NCBI GenBank assembly: GCA_016124655.1
Contig: WGNI01000009.1
Location: 62,001-126,000, forward strand
Source: Alphaproteobacteria bacterium
GTDB taxonomy: Bacteria > Pseudomonadota > Alphaproteobacteria > Caulobacterales > Aquidulcibacteraceae
Length of the DNA stretch: 64,000 bases
Direction: 5' to 3'
Numbering within the stretch: position 1 is the first letter of the stretch; each line of letters starts with the position of its first letter. The notes under the pieces are model-generated. The model worked only from the letters and a program-made list of their open reading frames with translations, was not told where the DNA came from and did no database searches. A program made the position numbers and the translations under genes. Positions 34,244 through 53,977 of this stretch are shown here, in pieces.

Positions 34244-35089
34244 ATGGGCGCCGCGCAAGGCGAATTAAAGGCGCGCAAGCCGCGGCTTTTGTGCTTCGGC
34301 TTCGGCGCAACCGCTGAGGCCCTGGCCGCGCGCCTGCCGGAGTGGGCGGTTATGGGCACGCATCGCGCCGCCCGCGACGGCGCGCTGGCGTTTTCCGGCG
34401 CGGCGACCCCCGAACTGGAGGCAGCGCTCGCCGCCGCCGATGCGGTATTGTGCTCCATCCCGCCGGACGAAGAGGGCGATCTGGCGTTTCGCGCGTTTGA
34501 GCCTGCCTTAAGTGCGCGCGCATTCCGCTGGATCGGCTATCTTTCCACCACCGGCGTGTACGGCGATCTTGGTGGCCGTTGGGCGTTTGAATGGACGCCC
34601 CGCAAACCCCAAAGCGCGGAAGCCAAACGCCGCGCGCGCGCGGAAGATCAATGGCTCTCGCTCGGCGCGCACGTGTTTCGCTTGCCGGGGCTCTATGGGC
34701 CTGGGCGCTCTGCGCTCGATCGCGTGCGCGCCGGCGATGCGCGCCGCATCGTCAAGCCGGGGCAGGTGTTTTCCCGCGCGCATTATGAAGACGTCGCTGC
34801 GGCTTTGGCGCTCTCGATCACGAAGCCCAATCCTGGCCGAATCTACAATGTCTGCGACGATGAACCCGCGCCGCCGCAGGACGTGACCGCATTTGCGTGC
34901 GCGCTGCTGGGCGTTGCCGCGCCGCCGGAGGAAATGTTCGACGCCGCCAATCTTTCACCCGCAGCGCAACGGTTCTGGGCGGAATGCAAACGCGTGCCGA
35001 ACGCGCGCATCAAGGCCGAACTCGGCTGGCGCCCGCTCTATCCCACCTACCGCGAAGGCCTGCGCGTGATTTTGGCGGCGGAGGGCTAA
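34244..35089 (+). CDS. SDR-type NAD-dependent epimerase/dehydratase-like protein (YeeZ-like)
   Basis: A 281-aa extended short-chain dehydrogenase. The nucleotide-binding GFGATAEALAARL replaces the classical GxxGxxG. The active-site region is YLSTTGVYGDLGGRW, giving the Tyr of the YxxxK-type family member in modified form, followed by RLPGLYGPGRSAL and YNVCDDEPAPPQDV, typical of YeeZ/HSCARG-like homologues. GGAG lies 8 bases before ATG 34244. Enzymatic substrate unknown. Confidence 0.85.
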   Translation: MGAAQGELKARKPRLLCFGFGATAEALAARLPEWAVMGTHRAARDGALAFSGAATPELEAALAAADAVLCSIPPDEEGDLAFRAFEPALSARAFRWIGYLSTTGVYGDLGGRWAFEWTPRKPQSAEAKRRARAEDQWLSLGAHVFRLPGLYGPGRSALDRVRAGDARRIVKPGQVFSRAHYEDVAAALALSITKPNPGRIYNVCDDEPAPPQDVTAFACALLGVAAPPEEMFDAANLSPAAQRFWAECKRVPNARIKAELGWRPLYPTYREGLRVILAAEG

Positions 35090-35094
35090 CACAA

Positions 35095-35175
35095 CGCTCG
35101 GCCTTGGCGAAAGCCAGGGCCCATGACCGCGTTGCGCTTGAAGAAGTGGGCCCTGGCTTTCGCCAGGGCCGAGCG
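35095..35175. repeat. Palindromic repeat element (GGCCCTGGC hairpin pair), copy beside GIY-YIG gene
   Basis: An imperfect 29-bp inverted repeat: left arm 35095-35123 and right arm 35147-35175, spacer 23 bp, one mismatch. Each arm itself contains a hairpin: arm GGCCCTGGC / GCCAGGGCC around a GAAA (or TTTC) tetraloop. The same module appears once at 35489-35517 and three times in the 53-kb array. It lies between the epimerase gene and the GIY-YIG gene, convergent in both. Confidence 0.85.
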
Positions 35176-35181
35176 CCCAAT

Positions 35182-35472
35182 TTAGAATAGCGTCGGGTAA
35201 AGGTCATCCCAGTTTGGATTCGCGCGCTCGATCAGCTCGATTTTCCACGCGCGGCGCCAGAACTTCATCGCGCGTTCGCGCGCGCGAGCTCCATCATACC
35301 AGTCTCCGGTTTCAAACCACACCAATCGCGTCAAGCCGTACCTGCGCGTGAAGGGAGAACCAACACCTGTGCGATGCTCATGCACGCGGCGGAGCAAGTC
35401 GCTTGTCACGCCGAGATAAAGCGTGCCGCGAGGTTTGTTTGTCATCATGTAAACAGCGCAAGGCTGATTCAT
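35182..35472 (-). CDS. Stand-alone GIY-YIG endonuclease (YhbQ-like)
   Basis: A 96-aa single-domain GIY-YIG nuclease. The first half-motif is AVYMMTNKPRGTLYLGVTSDL, i.e. VYM and YLG forms of GIY/YIG, followed by the catalytic Arg in LLRRVHEH and RRYGLTRLVWFE. A later Glu (RARERAMKFWRRAWKIELIE) completes the active site. The gene is bracketed by the hairpin repeats at 35095-35175 and 35489-35517, only 6 and 16 bp away. That arrangement suggests the repeats and nuclease move or were maintained together. Confidence 0.9.
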   Translation of the reverse strand: MNQPCAVYMMTNKPRGTLYLGVTSDLLRRVHEHRTGVGSPFTRRYGLTRLVWFETGDWYDGARARERAMKFWRRAWKIELIERANPNWDDLYPTLF

Positions 35473-35488
35473 CCTGGCGCCCCGTTAG

Positions 35489-35517
35489 CGCTCGGCCCTG
35501 GCGAAAGCCAGGGCCCA
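35489..35517. repeat. Half-element of the GGCCCTGGC palindrome family
   Basis: A 29-bp copy with the same orientation as the left arm at 35095-35123; arms GGCCCTGGC / GCCAGGGCC flank a GAAA loop. It lies just upstream of the GIY-YIG start and just beyond the end of the hydrolase gene (stop at 35525). Confidence 0.8.
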
Positions 35518-35524
35518 TGAGACG

Positions 35525-36277
35525 TTATGCTGAGCTCAACTCCTCCGCCGTGCGCAGCAACAGCGCGATATCCTGCTCCCGCGACAGCCGGTGATCGCCG
35601 TCCTTGACAAGGCTCATGCGCACATCGCTCGACGCCAACCGCTCCAGCGTTAGAAGCGCATGGCGCCACGGCACGTCCGGGTCCTGCATGCCCTGGAGGA
35701 TGCGCACCGGCCCCGCAAACGGAATGGTTTTATCCAGAAGCAACCATTGCGCGCCGTCATCGATCAGCCGCTGCGTGATCACGTACGGCCCGTCGCCATA
35801 GGCCGAGGGCCGTTCCCATCGCCCGGTCGCGGCCAAGGCCGCTTTCGCCTCCGCCGGAAGGTTCGGCGCCATCAGCGCTTGAGTGAAATCCGCCGCCGGC
35901 GCGATCAGCAAGAGCGCCTGCACGCGCTCGGGCCGCGCCAGCGCGGCGAGCAGCGCCAGCCATCCGCCCATGGATGAGCCCACCAGCACCAGCGGCCCTT
36001 CGCTCAAATGATCGAGCGCATCGAGCGTGTCCTGCCGCCAGGCCGACACATCGCACGCCTCGAAATCGCCTTCTGACAGGCCATGGCCCGAATAGTCGAA
36101 GCGCAGAAACGCCTGCCCGCGCGCTTCCGCCCAGTCCGCCATCGCCTGCGCCTTGGTTCCGCTCATGTCGGATTTGAAGCCGCACAGCCACACGAAGGTC
36201 GGCCCGCGCCCGTTTTGACGGCGATACGCCAGCGCGGGCGCGCCAACGCGGTTCAGCTTTTCACCATCGATCGCCAT
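35525..36277 (-). CDS. Alpha/beta hydrolase (ABHD10-like)
   Basis: A 250-aa cytosolic serine hydrolase. The nucleophile elbow is LVLVGSSMGGWLALLAAL (Ser in GSSMGG), preceded by RFDYSGHGLSEGDF, a hallmark of this bacterial group, and followed by ILQGMQDPDVPW (acidic member) and LVKDGDHRLSR (catalytic His). Start at 36277 was chosen; in-frame ATGs at 36301 and 36322 are possible. The substrate may be an acyl or thioester; not deducible here. Confidence 0.88.
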   Translation of the reverse strand: MAIDGEKLNRVGAPALAYRRQNGRGPTFVWLCGFKSDMSGTKAQAMADWAEARGQAFLRFDYSGHGLSEGDFEACDVSAWRQDTLDALDHLSEGPLVLVGSSMGGWLALLAALARPERVQALLLIAPAADFTQALMAPNLPAEAKAALAATGRWERPSAYGDGPYVITQRLIDDGAQWLLLDKTIPFAGPVRILQGMQDPDVPWRHALLTLERLASSDVRMSLVKDGDHRLSREQDIALLLRTAEELSSA

Positions 36278-53186: not shown

Positions 53187-53977
53187 CCCATCACCCCGGC
53201 GACGCGAAGCGCCAGCCGGGGTCCAGGACTTCAACATCGCGCTCCTAGGCCCCGGGTCTTCCTTCGGTCGCCCGGGGCGATGGGGAGAGAGAAACTTCGC
53301 GGAACCCAATGACCGGGCCACGATGTGTTTGCGCAAAACCGAAAACGCTCGGCCCTGGCGAAAGCCAGGGCCCATTTTCGCGGATGCTGGTGGTCATGGG
53401 TCCCGGCCTTCGCCAGGACCGAGCGCACATCGAATTGCAGGTCCTCTTGCCCATCACCCCGGCGACGCGGAACGCAAAGACCGGGCGTCTCGGGTGACGG
53501 ACGAAACGAAAGCCGCTCGGCCCTGGCGAACGCCAGGGCCCATTTTCGCAAATGCTGGTGGTCACGGGTCCTGGCTTTCGCCAGGACCGAGCGCACATGG
53601 AATCGCAGGTCCTCTTGCCCATCACCCCGGCGACGCGAAGCGTCAGCCCGGGTCCAGGACTTCAACATCGCGCTCCTAGGCCCCGGGTCTTCCTTCGCTC
53701 GCCCGGGGCGATGGGGAGAGAGAAACTTCGCGGAACCCAATGACCGGGCCACGATGTGTTTGCGCAAAACCGAAAACGCTCGGCCCTGGCGAAAGCCAGG
53801 GCCCATTTTCGCGGATGCTGGTGGTCATGGGTCCTGGCTTTCGCCAGGACCGAGCGCACATGGAATCGCAGGTCCTCTTGCCCATCACCCCGGCGACGCG
53901 AAGCGCCAGCCGGGGTCCAGGACTTCAACATCGCGCTCCTAGGCCCCGGGTCTCCCTTCGCTCGCCCGGGGCGATGG
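53187..53977. repeat. Tandem array of 263-bp units built from nested palindromes
   Basis: Units begin with CCCATCACCCCGGCGACGCG. Unit 1 is 53187-53449 (263 bp), unit 2 is 53450-53617 (168 bp, diverged and missing the centre), unit 3 is 53618-53880 (263 bp) and unit 4 is a truncated start 53881-53977. Each full unit has module A (CCCCGGGTCTTCC...GCCCGGGGCGATGG, a palindrome) and module B, the same GGCCCTGGC/GCCAGGGCC hairpin pair as at 35095-35175, at 53346-53425, 53514-53593 and 53777-53856. Fills the gap between two convergent genes; no coding content supported. Repeats are nearly identical, so duplication is recent. Confidence 0.9.

Follow-up and report, generated by a model that had tools for sequence, protein, structure and literature searches.

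A GIY-YIG nuclease gene family flanked by its own REP palindromes, a candidate REP-mobilising unit of Proteobacteria

What does a small nuclease gene do between two sets of palindromes? In the window, that is, the whole analysed stretch of 64,000 nucleotides, a 96-aa GIY-YIG gene fills most of a short intergenic stretch together with copies of a repeat that recurs elsewhere in the genome. The initial annotation likened this to a unit of the RAYT/REP kind with a GIY-YIG enzyme in place of the Y1 transposase. The features that bear on this question are the following.

34244-35089, forward strand: left neighbour, epimerase-like (named by inspection), ending 5 bp before the REP dimer
35090-35524, no strand assigned: the whole 435-bp stretch of REP dimer, gene and REP, flanked by two convergent genes
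35095-35175, forward strand: REP dimer (REPIN-like), two inverted 29-nt REPs with a 23-nt spacer, 6 bp off the 3' end of the gene
35182-35472, reverse strand: GIY-YIG nuclease gene, 96 aa (ORF, Pfam match, alignment and AlphaFold model)
35488-35517, forward strand: single REP copy, 15 bp off the 5' end of the gene
35525-36277, reverse strand: right neighbour, alpha/beta-hydrolase-like (named by inspection)
53346-53425, forward strand: REP dimer of the same family, array copy 1
53514-53593, forward strand: REP dimer of the same family, array copy 2
53777-53856, forward strand: REP dimer of the same family, array copy 3

The two arms of the dimer beside the gene (35095-35123 and 35147-35175) are 29 nt each, 97% complementary and 23 nt apart, and the third copy (35488-35517, 30 nt) is 100% complementary to 35147-35176. 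A 22-mer of the palindrome has nine matches in the window with at most three mismatches, including the array at 53346-53856, compared with none in 100 shuffles. Complementarity and 22-mer matches together bear out the earlier claim that the gene is enclosed by palindromes of the array's family. The dimer coordinates and the 6-bp gap given at that time also hold; the half element starts at 35488, and its distance from the gene is 15 bp instead of 16 bp because it had been taken one base later. A search of the 2.94-Mb genome with the 14-mer core, allowing at most one mismatch, gave 58 matches, compared with one for the reversed control. By a by-eye count, 14 inverted pairs spaced 48-49 bp apart make up 28 of these 58 matches, and the 81-nt dimer is therefore a recurrent unit. 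Folded as single-stranded DNA, it forms one long hairpin (-42.5 kcal/mol, z -10.6). In the array, the three dimers lie inside near-identical longer repeat units with a spacing of 168-263 bp.

A Pfam search of the window protein identified GIY-YIG (PF01541, E 3.7e-11) as the sole family and no Y1 HUH transposase domain. Tyr8, Tyr19, Arg29, His33, Glu66, and Asn85 are invariant in 45 of 45 rows of the homologue alignment, and we take these residues to have the catalytic roles generally known for GIY-YIG enzymes. By its domain and these conserved, presumably catalytic residues, the protein can be assigned to the GIY-YIG superfamily. Comparison of close homologues indicates strong purifying selection (median dN/dS 0.097, 30 of 34 pairs) on a protein with an intact active site. 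The AlphaFold model (pLDDT 95) has UPF0213 BH0048 (1zg2, E 1.9e-3) as its nearest solved fold, followed by Slx1 (6seh, 7cq3), and the resemblance to UPF0213 was also found by sequence profile. Branched DNA is the substrate cleaved by Slx1, according to the available text of PMC6902002. In contrast to UPF0213/YhbQ and Slx1, for which our literature search found no repeat association, the window clade is multi-copy, patchy, and repeat-flanked. Searches of PHROGs and PADLOC returned no family matches for the protein, and an identity as a phage gene or defence gene was dropped on these zero matches.

The window protein has matches in 33 of the 60 genomes of its own family, with 0 to 4 per genome, and a profile of 45 homologues matches 248 of 397 genomes of the phylum with up to 10 copies in one, the weaker of these matches probably including other GIY-YIG clades. 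We scored the flanks by the longest exact word, in either orientation, common to the two 200-bp flanks of the gene, with a shared word of at least 12 counted as positive; gap-matched controls were genes with gaps of at least 60 bp on both sides. The family sample took up to 20 kb around most matches and comprised 50 loci with a tblastn match below 1e-12, and the phylum sample comprised 60 loci from many families, one per genome, picked from the match list blind to their flanks. A shared 12-mer was present at 28 of 48 scorable family loci versus 17 of 537 control genes and 5 of 150 gap-matched ones (Fisher p 2e-16). Likewise, 43 of 58 scorable phylum loci were positive versus 12 of 364 controls and 6 of 124 gap-matched ones (p 2e-22). 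In an independent set of 80 named-genome loci, 58 of 75 scorable loci were positive versus 11 of 264 random windows. These flank comparisons establish a GIY-YIG family bordered by REPs across Proteobacteria.

Homologues that lack flanking repeats, which the initial annotation held to speak against such a unit, are a minority by the test used (20 of 48 in the family and 15 of 58 in the phylum sample were negative). One locus that was read (R. tumorigenes, L294) has no obvious REP beside the gene. Inverted-repeat arm length was a weaker measure and was replaced by flank sharing; arms of at least 12 occurred at 34 of 48 family loci versus 45 of 150 gap-matched controls, and at only 20 of 58 phylum loci versus 28 of 124. 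The orientation of the REP beside the gene is mixed across loci, and there is therefore no single fixed element end; one fixed orientation around the gene was tested for and not found. A gene that simply happens to lie in repeat-rich intergenic space could also have palindromes beside it, as intergenic regions do hold REPs and a few of the gap-matched controls score positive. However, the difference from those same-locus controls in both samples and the dependence of repeat type on enzyme type, described below, run against chance. We rejected it on the gap-matched controls and assign it a negligible probability.

The type of repeat follows the type of enzyme. Protein similarity correlated with shared flanking 10-mers at the gene, counted with no preset motifs (Mantel rho 0.475, p <= 0.001, the locus pairs being not fully independent because a few loci are syntenic), and the correlation dropped to 0.08-0.15 at 300-2000 bp from the gene. 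Subfamily tags, which were chosen after the flanks had been read, gave the A tag at 8 of 9 A-type genes, the C tag at 5 of 6 C-type genes, the D tag at 4 of 6 D-type genes, and the B tag at 15 of 23 B-type genes, 18 of which have any tag. The 7-mer for the window's own type (W tag) is uninformative, being present in 19% of random windows. Five genomes contain both A and B enzymes (G033, G035, G053, G057, and G059), and none of their A or B genes is cross-tagged. Judged by its flanks, every subfamily of the enzyme goes with a REP type of its own, also in genomes that hold two subfamilies. Repeats placed at random relative to the gene family, the other observation thought to weigh against the unit, were thus not what we found. 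Moreover, only 5 of 253 B-type pairs have a neighbouring gene in common, on both sides in 3 of these 5, and gene and repeat therefore recur together at unrelated sites.

Repeat number also rises with the cognate enzyme. The median number of A-tag copies was 33 in the nine genomes with an A enzyme versus 1 in the 51 without (p 3e-6), and that of B-tag copies was 19 in 16 genomes with a B enzyme versus 2 in the remaining 44 (p 7e-6). Restricting the comparison to genus g14 gave p values of 0.0005 (A) and 0.008 (B); this check inside one genus also showed a modest elevation of B-type repeats where the A enzyme is present (3 genomes, p 0.077). One genome without the enzyme (G049, 91% complete) has 92 B-type copies.

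A housekeeping role would place the enzyme near REPs for another reason: it would trim or resolve REP cruciforms to protect replication and be kept beside the repeats without mobilising them. The Slx1-like fold and the purifying selection agree with such a role. However, an enzyme with a protective task need not lie beside the REPs, as it could work in trans from anywhere in the genome, and the direct adjacency fits a mobile unit better, as do the patchy occurrence in 33 of 60 family genomes, the copy number of up to 10 per genome, and the unrelated sites. We consider housekeeping unlikely.

The arrangement resembles the REPtron (RAYT/TnpA-REP) as presented in the available text of Di Nocera 2013 (PMC3733652) and Corneloup 2021 (PMC8266576). 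In both cases, a small DNA-processing enzyme lies between short palindromes, further copies of which are dispersed singly or as inverted dimers; one genome may hold several enzyme-repeat pairs, and repeat and enzyme appear to co-evolve. The window gene fits that part of the REPtron definition which asks for an enzyme gene flanked by a dispersed palindromic repeat. It differs in that the enzyme is a GIY-YIG protein and not a Y1 HUH transposase, that the tags are of the CGTC class or, in the window's family, others (CGCTC for the window REP) whereas REPtrons have GTAG, and that no strand-transfer chemistry is expected for GIY-YIG.

The window genome does contain one Y1 gene, and RAYT transposases might move the REPs with the GIY-YIG gene as a passenger. 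RAYT genes are palindrome-flanked as well: Y1 flanks share a 12-mer at 13 of 20 loci (counted from the locus list), and the flank-sharing method therefore detects the known RAYT system. However, that single RAYT-type gene (L296, C1:49831-50148) has GGGGACACTTCCATTT palindromes on both sides and not the window's REP. At the 20 Y1 loci read, the A, B, C, and D tags were found 0 times, the loose combined tag once, and the short W tag in 3. Furthermore, of the 60 family genomes, 27 have a Y1 transposase gene, and the 33 without a Y1 match include one (G023) with 76 B-type copies. With other palindromes at Y1 genes and no Y1 match in 33 of 60 genomes, we rejected RAYT as the mover of these REPs and hold that reading to be highly improbable. 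On the loci compared, the palindromes at GIY-YIG genes differ from those at Y1 genes of the same genomes. The view of the locus as a RAYT/REP-like unit with GIY-YIG in place of Y1 is therefore supported, as most homologues are flanked, repeat type tracks subfamily, and RAYT palindromes differ.

REPs are divided, in the available text of Di Nocera 2013 (PMC3733652), into GTAG repeats, which are linked with RAYTs, and CGTC repeats, a group to which the describers could assign no dedicated transposase. The same text defines the latter by a CGTC/TGTC/CCTC tag, an AT-initial stem of ~8-9 bp, a loop of 4-5 nt, and a CCA tail, and includes Neisseria dRS3 and Rickettsia RPE-4 and RPE-6 in the superfamily. 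We coded this description as a pattern, slightly widened to stems of 7-10 and loops of 3-6. The pattern was present at 28 of 60 phylum loci versus 28 of 1229 random windows, at 42 of 77 named loci versus 42 of 1075 random windows, and at 0 of 20 Y1 loci; the association therefore reaches the published CGTC class in other lineages. The REPs beside many homologues match its tag, stem, loop, and tail, come mostly from alphaproteobacteria, and are often inverted dimers, whereas the superfamily was described without a dedicated transposase and here an enzyme adjoins the REPs. In S. meliloti, A. lipoferum, N. aromaticivorans, and Neisseria, all named as CGTC-positive in the accessible part of PMC3733652, the GIY-YIG gene sits between CGTC-type palindromes. 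None of the 50 loci sampled in the window's own family has the pattern, and the window's REPs are thus a divergent relative of the CGTC class with other tags; the strict class was rejected for the window REP on this count and on its CGCTC tag, which is outside the definition and is not GTAG.

A strong homologue (E <= 1e-20) was present in 36 of 42 phylum genomes with at least 50 loose CGTC-REP matches versus 76 of the 355 others, a comparison in which the cut-off was set after the counts had been seen, the counts were copied over manually, and the 397 genomes include close relatives that are not independent. The six CGTC-REP-rich genomes without a strong homologue (G096, G112, G162, G197, G291, and G443) could hold remnants or depend on another enzyme. 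The highest number of CGTC-REP pattern matches in the 397 genomes was 745 (G144).

Empty sites, the check proposed in the initial annotation, were found in Sphingobium, Sinorhizobium, and Azospirillum and at the window locus. In the fnrL-fixJ gap of Sphingobium plasmids, three of the strains read have a REP, the gene, and an inverted REP; TYG64 and TYG74 have a single palindrome, TYG72 and TYG65 have other sequence, and S. herbicidovorans has no REP. Between gltA and lpxB, S. meliloti Ak57 (L353) has REPs and a truncated GIY-YIG copy in tandem with a full unit, and Sinorhizobium K101 has a single palindrome and no gene. Between sufB and sufC of Azospirillum lipoferum 4B, the gene lies between two REP dimers, and four of four relatives read are without all of these. 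For the window locus, 29 relative loci were read and both neighbouring genes were found adjacent in four; they are -28, -4, 32, and 235 bp apart there versus 435 bp here, with no GIY-YIG gene between them in any of the four. Such occupied and unoccupied alleles of one site are as expected of a mobile element. We found neither a target-site duplication nor a donor-recipient pair. In the empty-site search for the Rhizobium CIAT894 locus, the matches elsewhere were almost all to its IS4 transposase, and for R. tumorigenes every record that covered most of the query had the gene.

The single palindrome at the Sphingobium and Sinorhizobium sites is a fusion to which the left REP contributes its left half and the right REP its right half. 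This fused palindrome at two gene-free sites is equally compatible with homing into a REP and with deletion between two palindromes, which leaves the identical product. In the case of homing, the GIY-YIG gene would be a selfish homing-endonuclease gene with the REPs as target and homology arms, and the REPs would be spread by something else. Homing endonucleases of GIY-YIG type exist, and the NCBIfam search, which gave no specific family for the window protein at E 0.001, had a group I intron endonuclease model as its weak best match (E 0.0088). The I-TevI type shares with the window gene the catalytic domain and the apparent mobility of a nuclease gene. In contrast to it, the window enzyme is single-domain without a DNA-binding extension, has no intron, and is tied to a dispersed repeat instead of one conserved gene site. 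Moreover, a passive target predicts no rise of repeat copies with the cognate enzyme unless the enzyme settles where REPs abound, and the four Azospirillum relatives have no REP at the site. Homing in this sense appears rather unlikely to us.

Instead, we think it likely that the nuclease gene together with the palindromes beside it is a mobile unit, a stand-alone GIY-YIG nuclease paired with its own REP family and comparable to a REPtron built on an unrelated nuclease. Genome comparison documents adjacency, cognate pairing, co-occurrence at unrelated sites, allelic presence and absence, and selection. We infer that the GIY-YIG enzyme cleaves REPs and mobilises them. The enzyme, with its fold like that of UPF0213 and the branched-DNA nuclease Slx1, would recognise the hairpin or cruciform formed by its cognate REP and cut at or next to it; repair or replication would then place copies at new sites, whether of REPs, of REP dimers, or of the whole REP-gene-REP unit. 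As GIY-YIG enzymes act on DNA by hydrolysis and are not known to join it, spread would probably proceed via host break repair between REP copies, in a homing-like manner and not by RAYT-like strand transfer. Gene-free REP dimers would be non-autonomous passengers of the enzyme.

In a wider reading, which we favour with some reservation, the GIY-YIG family would supply the dedicated enzyme that CGTC-type REPs and related repeats have so far lacked. It would make up a second REP-mobilising class, non-homologous to RAYT, acting by hydrolytic hairpin cutting and host repair, and be the source of a large share of the palindromic repeats in alphaproteobacteria, Neisseria (dRS3), and others; a different class of palindromes would be paired with at least one other GIY-YIG clade. 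The family is thus a candidate mover for a class of repeats to which no enzyme had been assigned. As this candidate is small and single-domain and offers dozens of natural enzyme-repeat pairs, several per genome, the question is directly testable. If true, a hydrolytic nuclease route would join the known ways in which short repeats spread, and it could account for many annotations as "GIY-YIG nuclease family protein". A literature search that covered neither subscription papers nor preprints, and beyond which an earlier description is possible, found no published link between a GIY-YIG enzyme and REPs; RepRanger 2025 (PMC12306157), a HuH survey (PMC6006769), and a Bradyrhizobium repeat paper (PMC5082802) make no mention of GIY.

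Two other GIY-YIG clades were seen beside repeats. A second, distant clade (L361-L381 class genomes, L119) has the palindrome class CCTCATCCTGAGC..GAAGGATGAGG / CTTCGACAAGCTCAG; its flanks share a 12-mer at 14 of 20 loci, and its 15-mer was found at 4 of 20 loci versus 0 of 247 random windows. A gene of a third clade (L066), in the window's own genome at C17:219017-219226, lies directly after a tRNA-like sequence and has copies of a different long repeat on both sides.
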